A DNA stretch of 25,586 bases from Nitrospirota bacterium (lineage in GTDB: Bacteria > Nitrospirota > Nitrospiria > Nitrospirales > UBA8639), in NCBI GenBank assembly GCA_029879555.1, contig JAOUQB010000001.1, positions 1-25,586 on the forward strand, in the 5' to 3' direction. The position numbers and the translations under genes are program-made. Position 1 is the first letter of the stretch. Every line of letters starts with the position of its first letter. Positions 672-16,688 of the stretch are shown here, in pieces. The notes under the pieces are model-generated. The model had not been told where the DNA came from and did no database searches. It was given only the letters and a program-made list of their open reading frames with translations.

Positions 672-1931
672 TTAGGAAAATATGTTGGGAATTGATTCTC
701 CACGAATCAAATCTTCGTAGGTTTCTCGTTCTCGAATCACCATCATCTTGTCGTCTTTGATGAGCACTTCTGGTGTTTTAGGTCTGGAGTTGTAATTGGA
801 GGCCATCGTAAATCCATAGGCTCCAGCACTCATGACTGCCAATAAGTCTCCTGATTGCGGCTGTGGCATTTTTCGGTCTTTGGCTAAGAAATCACCTGAT
901 TCACAAATGGGCCCCACGACGTCCACGGTATTGACAGGAGCTGATTCATTTTTGAGGACGGGCTGAATGTCATGATGTGCATCATACAAGCTCGGGCGAA
1001 GTAGATCATTCATCGCTGCGTCGACGATTACAAAATGCTTATTCGCGCCCTCTTTATTGTAGAGCACTTTCGTGACCAAGATTCCGGCATTGCCGACAAT
1101 CGATCGCCCTGGCTCCATGATAATGTGACACGAGGTAGTTTGGAGTAATGGAGAAATGGCTGCAGCCAGATCCGCAGGGTGTGGCGGGGTTTCGTCCGAA
1201 TAGGTGATTCCGAGACCTCCACCAATATTCATATAGCGAATATCGATTCCTTGAGCTTTCAATGACTGGATGAGATGTAAGACTTTTTTAATGGCGTCGA
1301 CAAATGGCGCCACTTGGGTGAGTTGTGAGCCGATATGGCAGTGCACCCCGACGACCTCAATGTGGGAAAGTTGGCTGGCAAGTGCAAACTCATTCAGGGC
1401 CTGATCCGCGGCAATACCAAATTTGCTTTTTTTCAATCCCGTGGAAATGTAGGGATGGGTTTGCGGGTCGATATCTGGATTGATGCGCAGCGCCACACGT
1501 GCCCGCAGTCCAATACTTTTGGCGACCTCATTGATTTGTTGGAGCTCACCAGCAGATTCGACATTGAACATGAGAATGTCAGACTCCAAGGCATAACGGA
1601 TTTCTTCAGGAGATTTTCCTACCCCGGCAAAGACCATCTTGTTCGAGGGCACTTCGGCCTTTAGCGCCCGAAACAATTCTCCGCCAGACACGATATCCAC
1701 TCCACTGCCTTCTTTGGCCAAGAGCTTCAAGATGGCAATGTTGGAGTTGGCCTTCATGGCATAGGCGATGATATGGGGAATGTCCTGAAAGGCGCCATCG
1801 AAGGCATGGAAATGACGGTGGATCGTGCGATGGCTATAGATATAGCACGGTGTGCCTACTTGCTCGACAATGTGTTGAATGGAGACTTCTTCACAAAAAA
1901 GTTCTCCTCCTTTGTAGTGGAAGTCATGCAT
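672..1931 (-). CDS. lysA: Diaminopimelate decarboxylase
   Basis: PLP enzyme that decarboxylates meso-diaminopimelate to L-lysine, the last step of lysine synthesis. The product is 419 residues from the ATG at 1931-1929, the usual family length. Seen in the sequence: PLP-binding Lys60 in YAMKAN, the HIGSQ motif, the GGGLGI phosphate-binding loop, EPGRSIVG, and the catalytic Cys in CESGDFL. The frame stays open a further 16 codons upstream, but the residues from MHDFHYKGGEL onward match the family start. This ATG overlaps the end of the upstream radical SAM gene by 8 bases (ATGCATGA), which suggests translational coupling. dapA follows 15 bases downstream. Confidence 0.96.
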   Translation of the reverse strand: MHDFHYKGGELFCEEVSIQHIVEQVGTPCYIYSHRTIHRHFHAFDGAFQDIPHIIAYAMKANSNIAILKLLAKEGSGVDIVSGGELFRALKAEVPSNKMVFAGVGKSPEEIRYALESDILMFNVESAGELQQINEVAKSIGLRARVALRINPDIDPQTHPYISTGLKKSKFGIAADQALNEFALASQLSHIEVVGVHCHIGSQLTQVAPFVDAIKKVLHLIQSLKAQGIDIRYMNIGGGLGITYSDETPPHPADLAAAISPLLQTTSCHIIMEPGRSIVGNAGILVTKVLYNKEGANKHFVIVDAAMNDLLRPSLYDAHHDIQPVLKNESAPVNTVDVVGPICESGDFLAKDRKMPQPQSGDLLAVMSAGAYGFTMASNYNSRPKTPEVLIKDDKMMVIRERETYEDLIRGESIPNIFS

Positions 1932-3801
1932 GGCTCGGGCTCTCTTCAAAGATGTCCCAATCAACAAGGGCCATTTCATTTATGGTTGTTTGGAACGCTT
2001 CTTTTAATTTTCGATAGCGTAAATTGGCATGAGGAGTAATAGCTTTCAGGATTTCCCCATCTAACAACGTTTGAATCGCTTTAGGCGTGGCATGCTTGAG
2101 ATGTTCAAAGTTGACGACGATGTCCATTTTGGCATCCTGGGCAGCTTGTTTAATACGCGTCAAGAGTTCTCGGGCGTTCAGATGGTCTAACGTTCCTTCC
2201 AACTCAATGAACAAGGCCGCAAAGGCATCGTGCCGACGGGCTTTGACATTTAAACACAGGTCCTGCTTTTTTGCCGGTTGGGATGCCTGTGGGAACAGGG
2301 CATTTGGAATCAATTGCTGGGTTTCAAATGTGGGAAGTCTCGCCTCGAGATTTTTGAGGACGCTCGCGATGGGCGATAATCGACCTTGTGGCGTTGATCT
2401 CCGAATGAGTTTCCGAAATTCCCAATTCATTTCGAGTCGAGGAATAAGCCGTTGGCTGGTATGGGCCACCCGTTTCCAGATACAAGGCCAGGAATAAAAT
2501 TCATGGTTGGCCCAAAAAAATCCTTCCTGTAGTTGTTCCGGTGTCATGCGTTTGGGTGTGTAGACCACATGCTTGCCGTCATACTTTGACCAATCTCGAT
2601 CAAAGATCCGTCCTTCCCGTTCATACCGTTCAAATAGGGCGGTACCTGGAAGCGGGGTCAGCACATTGAAATAGGCCAGTTCCAATTTATTGCGTGTGAG
2701 AAAATTAATGGCCGTCTCAAATACCGATTCGTCATCGTTGTCAAAGCCAAACACGATACCTGGGTTCACCATGATGCCATGATCGTGAAACATTTTAATT
2801 TGATCTTCAAATTTGCGTACTTGATTAAACCCTTTGTTTGTTTCGCCTAAGGAATCTACTGAGAGCGACTCGAGCCCCACAAAGACTGAGACGCATCCGC
2901 TGTCGGCGGCCAATTTCACCATGTCAGGATCGTCTCCCAGGAACATCGTGGATTGGCAGCCCCATTTAATGTTGAGAGATTTCAAGGCTTCCCACAGTTC
3001 GCGGCAATAGGCACGGTGGCTATTATGTAAATCATCGACAAAAGCGACAATAGACCCTTCTTCCAACCCGACCCAAATTTTCAACGACGTTGAAATCGCA
3101 TTTAAGAGAGAGCCCTGTGTCATGCGTTCAACGATATCTGAACGAAGCCATTCTTTGGCATGTTTCAATTCTGCGATCACCTCTGGAACCGGACGGCGGC
3201 GTGTCGTTTTCCCATTAAACGGCGATACGCTGCAGAACTCGCAATCAAAATGACACCCCCGAGTCGTAAAGCTGCATAATCTTGTCATGTACGAATCGGG
3301 GCTGAGTAATTCGATCCGTGGGGGTTTATAGTCACTCAAGTCTGGGAATTGATCCATACGATAGATACGCTTCAAGGCCCCTGCTTCGACATCTGCAACC
3401 ACTTGTGGCCAGAGGTCTTCAGCTTCTCCACAGACAATCGCATCGCAATGTTGCAGGGCTTCATCGGGACAATAGGTGGGGTGGACGCCTCCGAGCACCA
3501 CTTTTTTCCCACGGGCGCGAAATTCATCCGCAATTTCGTAGGCGCGTGGGGCGTAGCAGGTCATCACGGATAAGCCGACTAAGTCACAGGGCGTCTCAAA
3601 ATTAATGTCGGCGGTTGCTTCGTCCACCAGTTCGATATCCCATGTTGATGGAGTGTAGGCGGCAATGACTGGCAACGAGAGCTTGGGAAACCAAATAGAT
3701 CGGCGTTCACTCGCCGTCATATGGTACGGATTATTGCGTGGGTAAGGATCTAATAAGAGGAGCTTGGGGCGTGTCACATTGGGGGATTCTGTTATAGGCA
3801 T
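1924..3801 (-). CDS. B12-binding-domain radical SAM protein with a STAS-like C-terminal domain
   Basis: Product of 625 residues. Residues about 12-145 form a cobalamin-binding-like Rossmann domain without the DxHxxG motif. The radical SAM cluster motif CxxxCxxC is Cys183, Cys187, Cys190, followed by the TIM-barrel core (VFVGLES, NPGIVFGFD) and a tail with MTPEQLQEGFFWA as in DUF4070-type members. Two things are odd. A stretch of about 30 residues (roughly 217-248) interrupts the usual run between the helix after the cluster and the FVDD strand. Residues about 518-605 also look like a STAS domain (ELEGTLDHLNA, then DIVVNFEHLKH). The substrate is unknown; relatives include methyltransferases acting on hopanoids, lipids and tetrapyrroles. 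I chose the ATG at 3801 because TTGGAG sits about 11 bases upstream and the B12 domain begins soon after. The gene lies between the lipoprotein gene (99-base gap) and lysA (8-base overlap), so it is probably expressed with them. Confidence 0.85.
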   Translation of the reverse strand: MPITESPNVTRPKLLLLDPYPRNNPYHMTASERRSIWFPKLSLPVIAAYTPSTWDIELVDEATADINFETPCDLVGLSVMTCYAPRAYEIADEFRARGKKVVLGGVHPTYCPDEALQHCDAIVCGEAEDLWPQVVADVEAGALKRIYRMDQFPDLSDYKPPRIELLSPDSYMTRLCSFTTRGCHFDCEFCSVSPFNGKTTRRRPVPEVIAELKHAKEWLRSDIVERMTQGSLLNAISTSLKIWVGLEEGSIVAFVDDLHNSHRAYCRELWEALKSLNIKWGCQSTMFLGDDPDMVKLAADSGCVSVFVGLESLSVDSLGETNKGFNQVRKFEDQIKMFHDHGIMVNPGIVFGFDNDDESVFETAINFLTRNKLELAYFNVLTPLPGTALFERYEREGRIFDRDWSKYDGKHVVYTPKRMTPEQLQEGFFWANHEFYSWPCIWKRVAHTSQRLIPRLEMNWEFRKLIRRSTPQGRLSPIASVLKNLEARLPTFETQQLIPNALFPQASQPAKKQDLCLNVKARRHDAFAALFIELEGTLDHLNARELLTRIKQAAQDAKMDIVVNFEHLKHATPKAIQTLLDGEILKAITPHANLRYRKLKEAFQTTINEMALVDWDIFEESPSHA

Positions 3802-3900
3802 GAATTTAATTCTCCAAAACGAAGTGGTATCAAATAAAAAGAAGGTAATTCTAACGTGAATGCTGCCCCGTGAACAAACATTTGTCACCCGTTTGGGGTC

Positions 3901-9389: not shown

Positions 9390-10775
9390 TTAGTACTTAT
9401 AGGTATCTTCTTTAAATGGGCCTTCAACTGGAACATGAATGTACTGAGCTTGGGTTTTTGTCAGTTTGGTTAAGACCCCGCCAAATCCACGGACCATATG
9501 GGCAGCCACTTCTTCGTCTAAAATTTTGGGAAGTACTTGGACGGTCGGAGTTTCGCGTTCCACATGGTCGGCATACTTTCGCTCATAGAGGAAAATTTGA
9601 GCCAAGACTTGATTGGAAAATGAGCCATCCATAATTCGAGAAGGGTGCCCAGTGGCATTACCAAGATTAACCAGCCGCCCCTCAGATAATAAGATTAAAT
9701 GGTCCTTAACTGCTTTGTTCCGGTAGATTTTGTGAACTTGTGGCTTCACTTCCTCCCACTCCCAGTTTTTCCGCATATACTGCGTGTCAATTTCGTTGTC
9801 AAAATGTCCAATGTTGCACACTACAGCGCCGCATTTTAGGGCTTGTAACATGGCAGAATCACACACATTCAGATTGCCGGTTGTCGTAACGACCAAATCG
9901 GTTTGGCTCAACAGTAATTGGTTCGTGTCCTCAAGTTTGCCGGTATTAATCCCGTCTTTGTAGGGCGAAACGACTTCAAATCCATCCATGCAGGCCTGCA
10001 TAGCGCAAATTGGGTCAATTTCAGAAATTTTGACAATCATGCCTTCTTGGCGAAGGGATTGGGCTGATCCTTTCCCCACATCACCGTAGCCGATGACGAG
10101 TGCTTTTTTCCCAGCCATCAAATGATCTGTTCCTCGCTTGATGGCGTCATTTAGGCTGTGGCGGCATCCATATTTATTGTCATTTTTTGACTTGGTGACA
10201 GAGTCGTTTACGTTGATGGCTGGAACTTTTAACGTGCCATTTTTCATCATTTCTTGTAACCGATGCACGCCAGTGGTTGTTTCTTCCGTGATCCCGTGAA
10301 TGTGATCCAGCATGGCTGGATATTTCCCATGGAGCATCATGGTTAAATCGCCGCCATCATCTAATACCATGTTAGCATCCCAGGGTTTCCCATCTTTTAA
10401 AATCGTCTGCTCAAGACACCAATCGTATTCTTCTGCCGTCTCTCCCTTCCATGCAAATACGGGAATCCCTTTGGCGGCAATGGCAGCCGCAGCGTGATCC
10501 TGCGTTGAAAAGATATTGCAAGACGACCAGCGCACTTCCGCACCTAGTTCAATCAGGGTCTCAATTAACACACCTGTTTGGATGGTCATGTGAATACATC
10601 CCAAAATTTTGGCGCCTCTAAGAGGCTGCGAGCTACGGAATTTATCTCGGAGGGCCATCAAGGCTGGCATTTCCGTTTCAGCAATTTGCAGTTCTTTCCG
10701 GCCCCAGGCTGAAAGGTTAATGTCCGCAACTTTATAATCTTGTGTGGTAGCTTCTAATGTACTGGCAGTACTCAT
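9390..10775 (-). CDS. ahcY: Adenosylhomocysteinase
   Basis: Splits S-adenosylhomocysteine into adenosine and homocysteine, relieving product inhibition of methyltransferases. The product is 461 residues from the ATG at 10775, which has a GGGGGGAG ribosome site about 9 bases upstream; the frame stays open 27 more codons but those residues are not family-like. Landmarks: EETTTGV (164-170), SKNDNKYG (196-203), the NAD-binding GYGDVGKG (229-236), and the C-terminal PFKEDTYKY ending in the conserved Lys-Tyr. It follows metK by 130 bases on the same strand, so the two steps that make SAM and remove SAH are probably co-expressed. A strong hairpin lies just after the stop. Confidence 0.97.
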
Positions 10776-10905
10776 AATGATCACTCCCCCCTCGTTTGTC
10801 TGTGTGGGTAACCTAATTAGCAAATTATGGAATGCAAAAGCATAGATTGAGGGCAAGAAGTCTGACTTCCTCTCTCAGATCTGGCCGGAACCATTGTTTA
10901 TTAAA

Positions 10906-12057
10906 TTATAACCCAGCTTCCCTTCGTAGCAAGGCAGCTTTGTCAGTCTTTTCCCAAGTAAACCCTGGTTCATTTCGGCCAAAATGTCCATAGGCTGCTG
11001 TTTGCTTATAGATGGGGCGGCGCAATTTGAGGTGTTCGATAATACCCTTTGGTGTTAAGGAAAAATGCTTGCGCACTAATTTTTCAATGCGTTCCACGTT
11101 AGTTTTTTCTGTTCCTTTAGTATCCACTAAAACTGAGACGGGTTCAGCGACCCCAATGGCATAGGCTAATTGCACTTCGCATTTTTCAGCCAATTGGGCG
11201 GCAATAATATTTTTGGCAATGTAACGAGCCATGTAAGAGGCCGACCGATCGACTTTGCTCGGATCTTTTCCAGAAAAAGCGCCTCCGCCGTGGCTGCCAA
11301 CTCCCCCATAGGTATCGACAATAATTTTACGGCCTGTGAGTCCTGCGTCGCCCATGGGTCCTCCCACGACAAATCGTCCTGTTGGATTAATGTGAAATTT
11401 GATGTTTTTAGGGTTAAACAATTTCTTGGGCATGACGGGAATAATCACTTTTTCCATAATATCTTTTTCAATCTTCTTTGATGTCACCGCCTCGCTGTGT
11501 TGCGTCGAAACCACGATGGTATCAATTCTGACGGGCTTGCCATTTTTGTATTCAATGGTAACCTGGGCCTTTCCATCCGGTCGAACCCAAGGCAAAATAT
11601 TCTTTTTGCGAACTTCAGCTAATCGTCGAGTCAGTCGGTGGGCGAGGACAATCGTCATCGGCATGAGCTCAGCGGTTTCATTAGAGGCATAGCCAAACAT
11701 GAGGCCTTGATCCCCGGCACCTCCGGTATCCACGCCCATCGCGATATCGCCAGACTGGTTATCAATTGAAGTCAAGACGGAGCAAGTGCGATGATCAAAT
11801 CCCCAGGTCGCATCTGAATACCCAACGCCTTTAATAGTTTCCCGAATAATCTCAGGAATTTCCACGTAGGCTTTAGTGGAAATTTCTCCAGCCACAAAGG
11901 CAATGCCGGTGGTAATCAACGTTTCACAGGCTACTCGGCAGTTCCTATCTTTTGCCATAATCGCATCCAAGATGCTATCTGAAATTTGGTCAGCAATTTT
12001 ATCAGGATGCCCTTCTGTGACTGATTCAGACGTAAACAGATAACTGGATTGTCTCAT
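10906..12057 (-). CDS. metK: S-adenosylmethionine synthetase
   Basis: Makes S-adenosylmethionine from methionine and ATP. The 383-residue length is normal. Seen: GHPDKIAD near residue 16, [12 protein letters not shown] (the ATP-binding signature) near 112, and the glycine-rich [16 protein letters not shown] loop near 258. A run of five G (AGGGGGAA) lies upstream of the ATG as a ribosome site. The leader just upstream contains short, mutually exclusive hairpins (see 12079-12106) but no SAM riboswitch consensus that I recognise. ahcY follows. SAM made here would also supply the two radical SAM enzymes in the window, although that is general rather than specific. Confidence 0.97.
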
Positions 12058-12667: not shown

Positions 12668-12675
12668 TAAGGAGG
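12668..12675 (+). promoter_or_regulatory. Strong ribosome binding site for the Usp-PCP_red gene
   Basis: TAAGGAGG ends 7 bases before the ATG at 12683. It is the best Shine-Dalgarno match in the window and fixes that start codon. Confidence 0.85.
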
Positions 12676-12682
12676 CTTGTGA

Positions 12683-14773
12683 ATGTACAAAACGATATAT
12701 GTCCCAGTCGATAATTCAGACCATTCCAATATGGCTGTCGAGTTGGGCGTCCAATTCGCGAAGGTATTTGGGTCGAAAATGGTTGGGAGCCATGTCTATG
12801 CCGCAAAAATGCATGATAAGCGGTTTAAGCAAATGGAAGCTGGGCTCCCCGAAGAATATCATGACGAGAAAGAATTGGATCGACAACGGCAAATCCATGA
12901 TTCCTTGATAACGCGTGGTCTCCAAATCATTACTGATTCGTATTTAGATTACGTTGGTGAAAAGTGTGACGAAGCCAATATTCCTCTGGAGCGACGTTCC
13001 TTGGAAGGACGCAATTGGAAGGCGATTGCGGAAGACATTACTAAAAATGGCTACGACCTCACCATTATGGGTGCGTTAGGCGTGGGGGCTGTCAAAGATT
13101 CCATTATCGGGAGCAACACAGAACGAGTTATTCGACGGGTGCGCAATTCGGATATGTTCATCGTCAAAGATACCAAGCCAATGAATGGCGGAAAAATCGT
13201 GGTAGCCGTGGATGGCAGTCATTACTCTTTTGGTGGCCTAAAGACCGCGTTGGCTCTTGGGAAGGCCCTGAATAAACCGGTTGAGGCAATTTCCGCATTT
13301 GACCCGTATTTCCACTATGCGGCTTTCCACAGTATTTCAGGGGTTCTGAATGAGGAAGCAGGAAAAGTCTTCAGATTTAAAGAACAAGAAAAACTGCATG
13401 AAGAAGTTATTGATAGTGGGTTGGCAAAAATTTACCAATCGCATTTAGATGTTTCGCGTGATGTGGCCCAGGACGAGGGAGCTGACATTAAGACCACCCT
13501 ATTGGATGGCAAGGCTTTTGAGAAGGTCATCCAGTATGTTCGGAAAGAACAGCCATGGCTTCTTATCGTGGGGCGCATTGGTGTTCATAGTGACGAAGAT
13601 ATGGATATCGGCAGCAATGCCGAGAATCTTTTACGATCCGCACCTTGTAATGTCTTGATTTCCAATAGAAAGTTTGTGCCGCCTATTGATACCCAGGCGG
13701 AGTACACGATTGCCTGGACGGAAGAGGCGCTACGGCGCATGGAGAAAATCCCAGTATTTGCCCGAGGTGTCGCAAAGACGGCTATCCATCGCTATGCCAT
13801 CGAAAAAGGACATACGATTATCAGTAATTCGGTGATTGATGATGCCGTGGGCGATATTCTTCCGGCTGGAGCCATGGATGCGATGAAAACTCTTGGTGGA
13901 ACCCTGGATGCTGCCGGTGTTGATCGGAATGCCATGCAGGCTGACAATCAGGTGGCACAAGACTTAATGGGATCGACGATGAGTGGCATGATGGCTCAGG
14001 TTGTAGAAGAAAAACCGGTTGCTGCGAATCCATTGAGTGCTGGGAATCAAAATTATTTGGATCGGATGTCACGAGATTATTATGTGTGTGGTGGATGTGG
14101 GTATATTGGAAAAGGGGCCCATCCGGTTTTATGTCCTGTTTGTGGCCTGGATGGGGCACAATTTAAACAAGTGGATAAATCCATTTTTGATGCGGCAGCC
14201 AAGGCGGAAGGTGGTCTGGAAACGGAAGTCGCGTACGATGATATCCCCATGCAATGGACCAAAGATTCCCGAGAAGCTATTCGTTCCGTTCCTGCTGGAT
14301 TTCAGCGTCGGCGTGCGAAAGCCAAAATTGAAAAGACTGCCAGAAAGTTAGGAATGACGACCATCACATTGGAGTATGCAGGGCCGATGATTCAAGAGGC
14401 GGCGGCAGAAGACTATACTCCAATCTTTGCCAATAAAACGGCTGGGGAGGCTTCAATTATGGGTTCTGATTCCAAGAATGACCAAGCTCCTGAGTCCAAT
14501 GGGTCTGATCCCTATACGTGGGAACCCGATGCCCTTCAACGATTGGAACGGGCTCCGGCAGGTTTTATGCGGGATTGCACCAAGGCGTTAATTATTAAGC
14601 ATGCGGAAAAAGTTGGTACCACAACTATTACCCTTGATGTGGCTAACCAGGGTATTGAGCAAGCGAAGGAAACCATGGAAGAAGCGATGAAATCGGGGAA
14701 TGTCAAGGACATTGTTGCCAAGCTGACCGGGACAGGGGCGACTTCTGAAGCCCAACCAGGAGCCGGTCACTAA
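12683..14773 (+). CDS. Tandem universal stress protein fused to three PCP_red domains and a rubredoxin-like ribbon
   Basis: Product of 696 residues with an unusual architecture. Usp domain 1 (2-163) and Usp domain 2 (170-327) each keep the nucleotide-binding G-x2-G-x9-G-S motif (Gly130/133/143 and Gly297/300/310). Residues 341-393 match PCP_red, the C-terminal domain of BchB/ChlB, in the pattern Trp, Ala, IPxF, R, YA..G and T/I. A Ala/Gly/Met-rich linker leads to a rubredoxin-like knuckle with Cys469, Cys472, Cys484 and Cys487. Two further PCP_red copies follow at 521-573 and 609-661, each with W, APAGF or VPAGF, and TxTITL. There is no signal peptide, so it is cytosolic. The stop overlaps the next ATG by one base. 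I infer ATP binding and possible tetrapyrrole or redox sensing; the true role is unknown. No chlorophyll genes are present, so chlorophyll synthesis is unlikely. Confidence 0.88.
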   Translation: MYKTIYVPVDNSDHSNMAVELGVQFAKVFGSKMVGSHVYAAKMHDKRFKQMEAGLPEEYHDEKELDRQRQIHDSLITRGLQIITDSYLDYVGEKCDEANIPLERRSLEGRNWKAIAEDITKNGYDLTIMGALGVGAVKDSIIGSNTERVIRRVRNSDMFIVKDTKPMNGGKIVVAVDGSHYSFGGLKTALALGKALNKPVEAISAFDPYFHYAAFHSISGVLNEEAGKVFRFKEQEKLHEEVIDSGLAKIYQSHLDVSRDVAQDEGADIKTTLLDGKAFEKVIQYVRKEQPWLLIVGRIGVHSDEDMDIGSNAENLLRSAPCNVLISNRKFVPPIDTQAEYTIAWTEEALRRMEKIPVFARGVAKTAIHRYAIEKGHTIISNSVIDDAVGDILPAGAMDAMKTLGGTLDAAGVDRNAMQADNQVAQDLMGSTMSGMMAQVVEEKPVAANPLSAGNQNYLDRMSRDYYVCGGCGYIGKGAHPVLCPVCGLDGAQFKQVDKSIFDAAAKAEGGLETEVAYDDIPMQWTKDSREAIRSVPAGFQRRRAKAKIEKTARKLGMTTITLEYAGPMIQEAAAEDYTPIFANKTAGEASIMGSDSKNDQAPESNGSDPYTWEPDALQRLERAPAGFMRDCTKALIIKHAEKVGTTTITLDVANQGIEQAKETMEEAMKSGNVKDIVAKLTGTGATSEAQPGAGH

Positions 14774-16161
14774 TGGGTAAATCCCTTCCGGTTCTTAACT
14801 CATTATTCAATAGTCTGTCGTCGTTAGGTTCGAATGCCGTCTCGCGGTTCGAATCCCTTCGTCCAGGTCCAGGGATTGATGCCCCAGGCGATGGCCGGAC
14901 GGTTGATGATTTTAAGCCGTACTTGGTCGCTCTGAATCTCACCAGTCGCTGTAATCTCAAATGTGAACACTGTTATTTGGACGCGACGACAAAGATGAGT
15001 GGTGGGCACGATGAACTTTCCACCGAGGAATGCTTCCGACTCATCGATCAAATTGCTGAGGTCAATCGGGGAAGTCTCTTGGTGATTACAGGCGGTGAAC
15101 CGTTAGTGCGACCAGATATCTTAGACATCGCTCGACATGCTGTGAAACACCAATTTATGGTGGTTTTCGGGACCAATGGCATGTTGATTGACGATGCCAT
15201 GGCGAAACAGATGGTGGAAATTGGGGTCATGGGAGTTGGAATCAGCATTGATTCACTTGATGCCGCCACCCACAATGCGTTTCGTGGAATGCCGAATGCC
15301 TGGGAAGGTGCCTTAGCCGGCATCGAAGCTTGTAAGCGTAACGGGCTACAGTTCCAAGTTCATTTCAGCGCGCAACCCATGAACTATAAAGAATTACCGG
15401 CTGTCATTGATTGGGCACATGATCTTGGAGCCAAAGTGCTCAATGTCTTTTTCATGGTTTGCACGGGACGTGGTGAGGAATTGACCGATATTACGCCCAC
15501 CCAATACGAGGAAGTCTTAGTCCATTTGATCGAAAGCCAAGATAAATACCAAGATATGTTGGTTCGGGCCCGATGTGCCCCACATTTTAAACGTCTAGCT
15601 TACGAAAAAGACCCGAATTCACCGATCACGAAGGCTCAGGGTTATATGGGCGGCGGTTGCCTTGCGGGGACCAACTATGCGCGAGTGACGCCAAACGGCG
15701 ATCTGACGCCCTGTCCTTACATGCCTTTATCTGCAGGAAATATTCGGGACAATAGCTTTGTTGATTTGTGGGAGAAGTCGGAGGTGTTTGATTCCTTTCG
15801 CTACCCGCATCTCAAAGGCAAGTGTGGCGATTGCGAGTACAGTGAAATTTGCGGTGGTTGTCGTGCGCGACCCTATGTGGACCATGGAGATTGGATGGAT
15901 GAAGATGAATGGTGTCTCTATACCCCGAAAGGTGGGGAAAAGATTCAGGTGGCCTTCAATGTGCCAGAGGCCTCATCCGTCATTTGGGACCAAGCTTCGG
16001 AAGAACGGCTCAGTCGTATCCCCTATTTCTTGCGGGCCATGGTAAAAAAAGGTGTAGAGCGCCATGCCGTGGAAGAAGGGATATCCGTCGTCACCATCGA
16101 ATTAATGGAAGAACTTCGCAAACGCCGGTTTGGCAACGAAAAACCAGTCTTTAAGTTCTAA
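14773..16161 (+). CDS. Radical SAM/SPASM protein (NirJ/AhbC/AhbD-like) with C-terminal PCP_red domain
   Basis: Product of 462 residues. The radical SAM cluster motif is Cys60, Cys64, Cys67 (RCNLKCEHCYLD), with GGEP at 107-110 and GISIDS at 156-161. Further Cys at 268, 296, 314, 351, 354, 360, 363 and 381 fit the auxiliary Fe-S SPASM region (CPYMP, CGDC, CGGCRARPY). This resembles the heme-pathway enzymes NirJ (heme d1), AhbC and AhbD, and less closely peptide-modifying SPASM proteins. After the SPASM part, residues 404-449 form a PCP_red domain (W, RIPYFLR, ERHAVEEG, VVTI) like those in the gene just upstream. Its ATG shares one base with the upstream TAA, and its own TAA shares one base with the next ATG, so all three products are probably made together. 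The substrate is unknown; a tetrapyrrole is my best guess. The N-terminal 45 residues are not recognisable. Confidence 0.88.
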   Translation: MGKSLPVLNSLFNSLSSLGSNAVSRFESLRPGPGIDAPGDGRTVDDFKPYLVALNLTSRCNLKCEHCYLDATTKMSGGHDELSTEECFRLIDQIAEVNRGSLLVITGGEPLVRPDILDIARHAVKHQFMVVFGTNGMLIDDAMAKQMVEIGVMGVGISIDSLDAATHNAFRGMPNAWEGALAGIEACKRNGLQFQVHFSAQPMNYKELPAVIDWAHDLGAKVLNVFFMVCTGRGEELTDITPTQYEEVLVHLIESQDKYQDMLVRARCAPHFKRLAYEKDPNSPITKAQGYMGGGCLAGTNYARVTPNGDLTPCPYMPLSAGNIRDNSFVDLWEKSEVFDSFRYPHLKGKCGDCEYSEICGGCRARPYVDHGDWMDEDEWCLYTPKGGEKIQVAFNVPEASSVIWDQASEERLSRIPYFLRAMVKKGVERHAVEEGISVVTIELMEELRKRRFGNEKPVFKF

Positions 16162-16688
16162 TGGAATCCCTTCTTGGGGTCCTCACCGATCTCAACCAAC
16201 TCATTCCGATTGTTGTGCATTGGCTACATTTGCTTTCCGCAGTCGTGTGGATCGGAGGCCTGGCCTTTCTGGTCATGGCTGTAACACCCTGCTTGAAAAC
16301 GACGGTCCCAAAAGAATTCATTAAGCCCATTTCCGAATCATTTTATAAGCAATATAAGCGAATCGTTGGCCTTCTGTTGGTGGTTATTCTGTTTACTGGC
16401 GGGGTCAACCTGCATTATGTGAGTCAAGGAATGATCATGGCGACGGGAGAGGGTGTGGGCCACCATGCCAAATATCTCATGGTCTTTTTTATTAAACTGT
16501 TCTTGGTGCTTGGAGTTTTAACCATTTTCCTCTACACAACTCTCTTTAAAAATGACCCGACTGGCCATGAAGACCAAGAAGAACTAGAAGAAATGGCTGT
16601 CGAGCCCGTCCCCTTCCAGCGAGTGGCCCTATGGATGGGCGTGTTTATTATTCTTTGCGCGTCAGCCATGAAACATCTTCATACCTGA
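16161..16688 (+). CDS. Four-helix membrane protein, CopD/HemJ-like
   Basis: A 175-residue integral membrane protein with helices at about 16-43, 66-88, 104-129 and 153-171. The first helix carries VVHWLHLLSAVVWIGGL (His20, His23), typical of the CopD and HemJ families, in which His residues bind heme or metal. His102-Ala-Lys104 before helix three resembles the HAK motif of HemJ (protoporphyrinogen oxidase) more than classic CopD. An acidic loop (135-146) separates helices three and four. The ATG overlaps the radical SAM stop by one base. With a heme-type radical SAM enzyme next to it, a role in tetrapyrrole chemistry or heme-linked electron transfer is plausible. Copper uptake is the alternative, but no CopC or copper chaperone lies nearby. 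Confidence 0.8.
   Translation: MESLLGVLTDLNQLIPIVVHWLHLLSAVVWIGGLAFLVMAVTPCLKTTVPKEFIKPISESFYKQYKRIVGLLLVVILFTGGVNLHYVSQGMIMATGEGVGHHAKYLMVFFIKLFLVLGVLTIFLYTTLFKNDPTGHEDQEELEEMAVEPVPFQRVALWMGVFIILCASAMKHLHT

Follow-up and report, generated by a model that had tools for sequence, protein, structure and literature searches.

A Usp, radical SAM–PCP_red and CopD-like gene trio conserved across Nitrospirales: possible core of a tetrapyrrole-tailoring module

Introduction

What task is served by three tightly joined genes of a Nitrospirota bacterium, a relative of nitrite oxidisers, that together carry four copies of PCP_red, a domain of the dark protochlorophyllide reductase subunit BchB, and do these genes belong together beyond a single contig? 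The locus lies on contig C524 of a Nitrospirota metagenome-assembled genome (605 contigs, 91.8% complete), and the whole stretch of DNA analysed, 25,586 nucleotides, is referred to here as the window. An earlier note, made from the sequence alone, had named the products a Usp–PCP_red–rubredoxin protein, a radical SAM–PCP_red protein (hereafter rSAM-PCP) and a CopD/HemJ-like membrane protein, and had proposed a conserved pathway for sensing, modifying or delivering a tetrapyrrole or electrons at the membrane under stress.

Results

Organization of the three-gene locus

The trio consists of three consecutive ORFs on the plus strand (Table 1), tied together, as the earlier note had read them, by two TAATG junctions in which the start ATG shares one base with the preceding stop. 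Its count of four PCP_red domains in two adjacent genes is reproduced by Pfam, with three in gene 1 and one in gene 2, and its remark that BchL and BchN are missing holds for the 20 window ORFs under the Pfam scan, further overlapping ORFs lying outside that scan. Upstream of the trio, on the opposite strand, lie ahcY and metK (9390–12057, −), each found again as a flank in 18 loci, window included. Their membership in the module was rejected because Nitrospira has other genes at their place. Elsewhere in the window, a gene (1924–3888, −) for a B12-binding radical SAM protein that matches DUF4070 adjoins one for a pyridoxal-dependent decarboxylase.

Table 1. Features of the three-gene locus (window coordinates).
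Feature	Position	Strand	Basis
Shine-Dalgarno-like AGGAGG ahead of gene 1 (putative function)	12670..12675	+	Sequence reading
Gene 1, Usp-Usp-PCP_red-rubredoxin-PCP_red-PCP_red protein, 696 aa	12683..14773	+	ORF, Pfam
Second Usp domain, residues 171–326, best Pfam stretch	13193..13660	+	Pfam
PCP_red 1 of gene 1	13715..13846	+	Pfam
Rubredoxin-like zinc ribbon, residues 467–495	14081..14167	+	Below Pfam cut-off; CX2C pairs
PCP_red 2 of gene 1	14255..14389	+	PCP_red matches
PCP_red 3 of gene 1	14519..14650	+	PCP_red matches
TAATG junction, stop of gene 1 / start of gene 2	14771..14775	+	Sequence reading
Gene 2, radical SAM / SPASM / PCP_red protein, 462 aa	14773..16161	+	ORF, Pfam, NCBIfam
Radical SAM domain, residues 55–193	14935..15351	+	Pfam; CX3CX2C
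SPASM domain, residues 296–355	15658..15837	+	Pfam; CX2CX5CX20-21C
PCP_red of gene 2, three helices in model	15985..16119	+	Pfam, predicted structure
TAATG junction, stop of gene 2 / start of gene 3	16159..16163	+	Sequence reading
Gene 3, CopD/DUF4149-like membrane protein, 175 aa	16161..16688	+	ORF, sub-cut-off Pfam

In gene 1, two Usp (PF00582) and three PCP_red (PF08369) domains exceed their gathering scores (112.8 versus 24 bits over two stretches, and 105.3 versus 32.5 bits), and the rubredoxin-like domain, at 20.8 bits against a Pfam cut-off of 26.5, displays the CX2C...CX2C pattern. The predicted structure is of low confidence (pLDDT 65.9, pTM 0.51), with Usp folds and helical PCP_red segments visible. 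Gene 3 falls below the gathering scores of both DUF4149 (PF13664; 17.3 versus 24.6 bits) and CopD (PF05425; 15.5 versus 32.1 bits), a relative in locus L121 scoring 25.6 and 23.5 bits for CopD and DUF4149, respectively. No match to HemJ (PF03653) was obtained at E 0.1, and a HemJ identity is not supported. The names proposed for the first two products are thus retained, the CopD-like name applies at sub-cut-off level, and the HemJ-like label is dropped.

The radical SAM enzyme forms its own clade

The PCP_red domain of gene 2 exceeds its gathering score (50.4 versus 32.5 bits), and the nearest NCBIfam families of the protein are NirJ2 (TIGR04055, 327 bits) and AhbD (TIGR04545, 316 bits). Gene 2 stays under every NCBIfam cut-off, including the equivalog cut-offs of these two families (500 bits each) and that of NirJ (TIGR04051; 174 versus 515.45 bits). 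The cysteine motifs CX3CX2C and CX2CX5CX20-21C are present in 39/39 PCP-type sequences and likewise in 35/35 comparison sequences; the same pattern is given for NirJ in passages of PMC10548856. These AhbD-type motifs, being common to NirJ and NirJ2, are not specific to AhbD. In a tree of 74 sequences, with the long branch to two NirJ sequences as the root, the PCP type forms a single clade beside NirJ2 and AhbD with a moderate ultrafast bootstrap of 89, lying outside the NirJ2 branch, and the NirJ2/AhbD node itself reaches only 38.

Comparison with these families places the enzyme close to, but apart from, each of them. With AhbD and NirJ2 it shares the radical SAM and SPASM domains, both cysteine motifs, CxPH/Q and CGGCR-type motifs and about 38–49% identity, whereas its C-terminal PCP_red domain, sub-cut-off scores, own clade, Usp partner and coexistence with other heme routes set it apart. 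With NirJ of heme d1 synthesis it shares both cysteine motifs and, in two loci (L138, L142), a neighbourhood of NirS/NirJ-like genes, but it lies farther off in the tree and far below the NirJ cut-off. The predicted structure of gene 2 (pLDDT 81) resolves the PCP_red domain as three helices. In family f18 (L125, L128, L130), the radical SAM protein bears extra PCP_red repeats and measures 706–730 aa.

PCP_red recurs in clustered genes

PCP_red is rare elsewhere: it was found in one of 14 control genomes (Synechococcus), versus 12 matches in five ORFs of the window's genome. Across 310 unique domains, mostly from Nitrospirota, no column exceeds 43% Cys/His, and PCP_red itself is therefore unlikely to bind metal. 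The 45-residue domain is shared with BchB (2xdq, 2kru, 8vqi and others), but gene 2 lacks the BchB body, and none of the genome's five PCP_red ORFs is a BchB with its catalytic body. The match of gene 2 to the BchB model (58.9 bits) spans just the last 53 positions, confined to the C-terminal PCP_red part. A chlorophyll-enzyme remnant was rejected.

Three further PCP_red loci occur in the window's genome. In L118, a Mrp-like ATPase gene, so labelled by similarity to a PF10609 protein of L099, is followed by a two-PCP_red gene; in L119, a HU-like gene (named by eye) precedes a four-PCP_red gene; and in L120, a DUF420 gene is followed by a two-PCP_red gene, which stands two genes ahead of a cytochrome bd-like gene (PF01654, 64.2 versus 26.2 bits). 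Only a few bases separate the HU-like and four-PCP_red genes (L119:482–1765), and L196 likewise has a HU-like gene surrounded by PCP_red genes. Elsewhere, PCP_red genes are clustered in one locus each in L122, L098, L099, L194 and L195. Specifically, L122 combines the trio with a four-PCP_red gene, a Haem_oxygenas_2 gene, a two-PCP_red gene, Mrp, DUF420 and a cytochrome c-EB_dh gene; L098 and L099 contain Usp-PCP, Mrp, PCP_red, CopD and rSAM-PCP; and L194 and L195 carry Usp-PCP, rSAM-PCP, four-PCP_red and CopD genes in a row.

The trio is conserved in Nitrospirales and its core reaches further

A contig scan with six short gene 2 peptides, queries that bias it toward close relatives, returned 171 relatives, of which the best 80 were retained, representing 79 loci. 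Among these, 61 are Nitrospirales-type, and wherever the distance is measurable, the others being cut by contig ends, rSAM-PCP adjoins the Usp gene (54/54) and the CopD gene (58/58). The adjacency seen in the window therefore holds outside the window's genome, and the possibility that the three genes are not neighbours elsewhere is refuted. The rSAM–CopD spacing is exactly −1 in 31 of 58 loci and within 100 bases in 53, with a largest gap of 199; the Usp and rSAM genes overlap in 15 of 54 loci, with a spacing of exactly −1 in none, within 100 bases in 52 and 135 at most (in L049, part of gene 1 reads N). The exact TAATG is thus conserved only partly. The trio is kept together across Nitrospirales while its flanks vary: metK/ahcY lies upstream in the window's clade. 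Many Nitrospira (L062:3053–5627 and similar) carry a UbiE-like methyltransferase gene (named by eye) and a B12-binding radical SAM gene just upstream on the same strand, the latter nearest to the slr0320 family yet below its cut-off (447 versus 775 bits).

The idea of a conserved gene set extends, for the Usp and rSAM-PCP pair, far beyond Nitrospirales. The wider set comprises 32 loci outside the Nitrospirales-type set, 27 from Nitrospirota and five from other phyla, and a tandem Usp protein stands directly beside the radical SAM gene in 23 of them. In L098, L099 and L124, Usp lies within the locus without adjoining rSAM, and no Usp is seen in the loci L103, L104, L123, L132 and L147. L135 retains a cut C-terminal part of gene 1, and the radical SAM gene of L100 ends at the contig edge ahead of any PCP_red and groups with the PCP clade in the tree. 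The Usp proteins of L137–L146 are without PCP_red and rubredoxin, and CopD is absent outside the Nitrospira class and Poribacteria. The older core is the tandem Usp protein with the radical SAM–PCP_red enzyme, found across Nitrospirota and in a few loci of other phyla.

Carrier genomes have other heme routes

Heme routes were surveyed in 62 chosen genomes, 41 of them rSAM-PCP carriers. In 40/41 carriers the heme decarboxylation step is covered by a different enzyme, through four routes in all, 14 of these 40 being assigned on sub-cut-off AhbD-like matches; G012 is the sole carrier in which none was found. PF06778 (HemQ-family) matches occur in 21/41 carriers, HemF matches with flagged stops in G119 and G131, HemN in G008, G049 and G131, and AhbD over cut-off in G002. 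AhbD-like matches below cut-off (424–449 versus 500 bits) are present in 12/41 carriers (f26–f37 and G203), and split ones in G006 and G016. G139 and G159, which carry a variant of rSAM-PCP (L194, L195), have a PF06778 match as well. PF06778 covers chlorite dismutase too, and the group scoring roughly 193–207 bits probably represents HemQ. The window's own genome has a lone PF06778 match of 93.7 bits, and HemY, HemH, HemN and HemF are all without a match over cut-off there. The presence of another decarboxylation enzyme rules out rSAM-PCP as simply the missing housekeeping heme synthase and speaks for a separate task.

Ferrochelatase (PF00762) gave no match in 7/7 window-family genomes (G000, G191, G081, G137, G179, G125, G133), nor in G189, and HemY is over cut-off in six of these seven, G000 being without it. 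In L191 and L192, hemY comes immediately after hemE (named by eye); the sister family's L193 has hemH between the two (hemE-hemH-hemY).

The survey bears directly on a somewhat unlikely alternative, in which rSAM-PCP would be a backup heme b synthase, an oxygen-independent coproheme decarboxylase for low-oxygen conditions that works alongside HemQ as HemN does alongside HemF. AhbD is among its two nearest families, and all 18 Nitrospirales genomes examined have a HemQ-family protein and no AhbD besides rSAM-PCP. A precedent exists in Haloferax volcanii, which according to PMC5746218 uses the ChdC-type PitA for aerobic and AhbD for anaerobic growth. However, in the carriers with a separate AhbD, AhbD-like protein or HemN, a second oxygen-independent decarboxylase would be redundant, and the rSAM-PCP clade lies apart from AhbD. 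The low-oxygen backup idea would remain for HemQ-type organisms, with the Haloferax precedent.

Tetrapyrrole and respiratory neighbours

Protoporphyrinogen oxidase adjoins rSAM-PCP in L103 (302 bits) and L125 (291 bits; cut-off 97.85), and similarity identifies it as a neighbour in L128 and L130. In f18, the genomes G008 and G049 carry a second copy elsewhere, next to HemN. Protoporphyrinogen oxidase also occurs in 4/13 AhbD control loci, indicating a neighbour typical of the wider enzyme group. In L138 and L142, rSAM-PCP adjoins NirS (Pfam) and NirJ-like proteins (below cut-off) in a NirS/NirN/NirJ-like cluster. L137 contains subunits of a type II DMSO reductase, all below curated cut-offs and taken by us to be NXR-like, together with a bd-like gene whose product exceeds the gathering score of cytochrome bd subunit I (PF01654, 50.8 versus 26.2 bits); L131, L144 and L146 are similar.

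Respiratory markers, picked after the loci were inspected, lie near rSAM-PCP in 13/32 loci versus 1/13 AhbD control loci (p 0.038), and in matched genomes in 7/11 versus 1/12 (p 0.009). With the loci that served as probe sources (L128, L137, L138) removed, the values become 10/29 versus 1/13 (p 0.13) and, in matched genomes, 5/9 versus 1/12 (p 0.046).

A broader association emerges from 245 Nitrospirota genomes, 135 with PCP_red and 110 with the bd-like protein (called at E 1e-30): PCP_red is present in 110/110 genomes with the bd-like protein versus 25/135 without it, the p-values of this co-occurrence ignoring shared ancestry and thus being inflated. Outside the window's class the figures are 22/22 versus 25/135, and 23 of the 25 PCP_red genomes without the bd-like protein have one domain only; in families f11 and f19, several genomes, G001 and G010 among them, lack the bd-like protein and match PCP_red once. 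Among the 62 chosen genomes, the bd-like protein occurs in 38/41 rSAM-PCP carriers and 0/14 clear non-carriers. G002, G008 and G228 have rSAM-PCP without a bd-like match, and G183, G232, G240, G187 and G018 show the reverse. The type II DMSO reductase alpha subunit, matched in 32/62 genomes with none over cut-off, tracks less cleanly.

The OR-N type of the co-occurring bd-like protein is a label adopted from papers. Passages of PMC6606698 and PMC3578206 describe bd-like oxidase clusters of Nitrospira, Nitrospina and anammox bacteria with an alternative NxrC and cytochromes c, and similar gene types occur in L100, L128 and L135. In contrast to our loci, these passages are silent on radical SAM, Usp and PCP_red proteins, and the one "putative zinc finger" protein they mention could be a PCP_red protein or something else. 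Collectively, the proposed link to tetrapyrroles draws support from the enzyme's family, its cysteine motifs and its neighbours, and the link to the membrane and electrons from neighbours and the co-occurrence with the bd-like oxidase protein.

Alternative roles of the trio

Most SPASM enzymes with solved structures modify a protein or peptide, and rSAM-PCP might likewise act on a partner protein, for instance a respiratory subunit or one of the PCP_red proteins. In line with this, a fold search with the gene 2 model yields generic radical SAM/SPASM relatives, for the most part peptide maturases of the SPASM type, and the enzyme's invariant partner is a protein without known role. These fold matches cannot decide the enzyme type, because solved AhbD and NirJ structures are absent from the results, and tetrapyrrole families outscore peptide maturases by more than 150 bits in NCBIfam, leaving this reading rather improbable.

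It is more doubtful still that the Usp–PCP_red–rubredoxin protein acts as a stress sensor of redox or energy state that controls respiration, with the radical SAM protein in a regulatory role. Both Usp domains of the gene 1 product carry a glycine motif, presumably ATP-type (residues 130–144 and 297–311), as do both domains in 10/15 relatives and one domain in the other five. The trio, however, contains no DNA-binding or kinase domain in Pfam, and the retention of both Fe-S motifs in all 39 radical SAM partners speaks for catalysis. Several Usp proteins of N. marina are up at low oxygen in a passage of PMC8115632.

A module for heme breakdown or repair with a heme-oxygenase-like iron enzyme as partner is highly improbable: a Haem_oxygenas_2 protein stands among the PCP_red genes of L122 and a similar gene in L196, but the family is broad and these are the only such cases among the loci examined.

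Discussion

Taken with the observed domain make-up, conservation, clade, neighbours and co-occurrence, the trio is best, if tentatively, read as the core of a larger, multi-gene PCP_red module. This module would tailor a tetrapyrrole, with a coproheme-type iron porphyrin as the likeliest candidate, and either the product or the electrons set free would pass to the membrane, for use by an NXR-like and cytochrome bd-like electron chain. In this scheme, rSAM-PCP would first perform oxidative side-chain chemistry of the AhbD/NirJ type, as its family and cysteine motifs suggest. PCP_red, small, helical and without a conserved metal ligand, may then serve as a common docking module for the Usp protein, the radical SAM enzyme and a Mrp-type Fe-S carrier partner, a role suggested by its repeated use in clustered genes. 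In the third and weakest step, the rubredoxin-like domain would take electrons from the oxidative reaction, and the CopD-like protein would hand them to the quinone pool or receive the product. Finally, the product may serve bd-like and NXR-linked cytochromes, as co-occurrence and neighbours suggest. The second and third steps would not be universal, because the Usp proteins of L137–L146 lack PCP_red and rubredoxin, and CopD is confined to the Nitrospira class and Poribacteria.

A literature search that left aside preprints and most subscription journals found no description of the module, which is likewise not named in passages of PMC7242693, PMC6606698, PMC3578206, PMC8115632, PMC12342949, PMC10839748 and PMC10548856; a passage of PMC10839748 still calls the bd-like oxidase family, used by Nitrospira-type bacteria in nitrite oxidation, uncharacterised in 2024. 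A bolder version of the tailoring reading, unlikely as it stands, is that the cytochrome bd-like oxidase or NXR chain of Nitrospira-type nitrite oxidisers needs a modified heme not recognised so far, which the module would make and deliver; PCP_red would then be a domain dedicated to docking during assembly. A cofactor module accompanying the bd-like protein throughout the Nitrospirota genomes that have it would give a genetic handle on the assembly of this respiratory chain, and perhaps a new heme. Such a module would also take PCP_red beyond chlorophyll synthesis and bring the AhbD/NirJ2 group of radical SAM enzymes to three clades.
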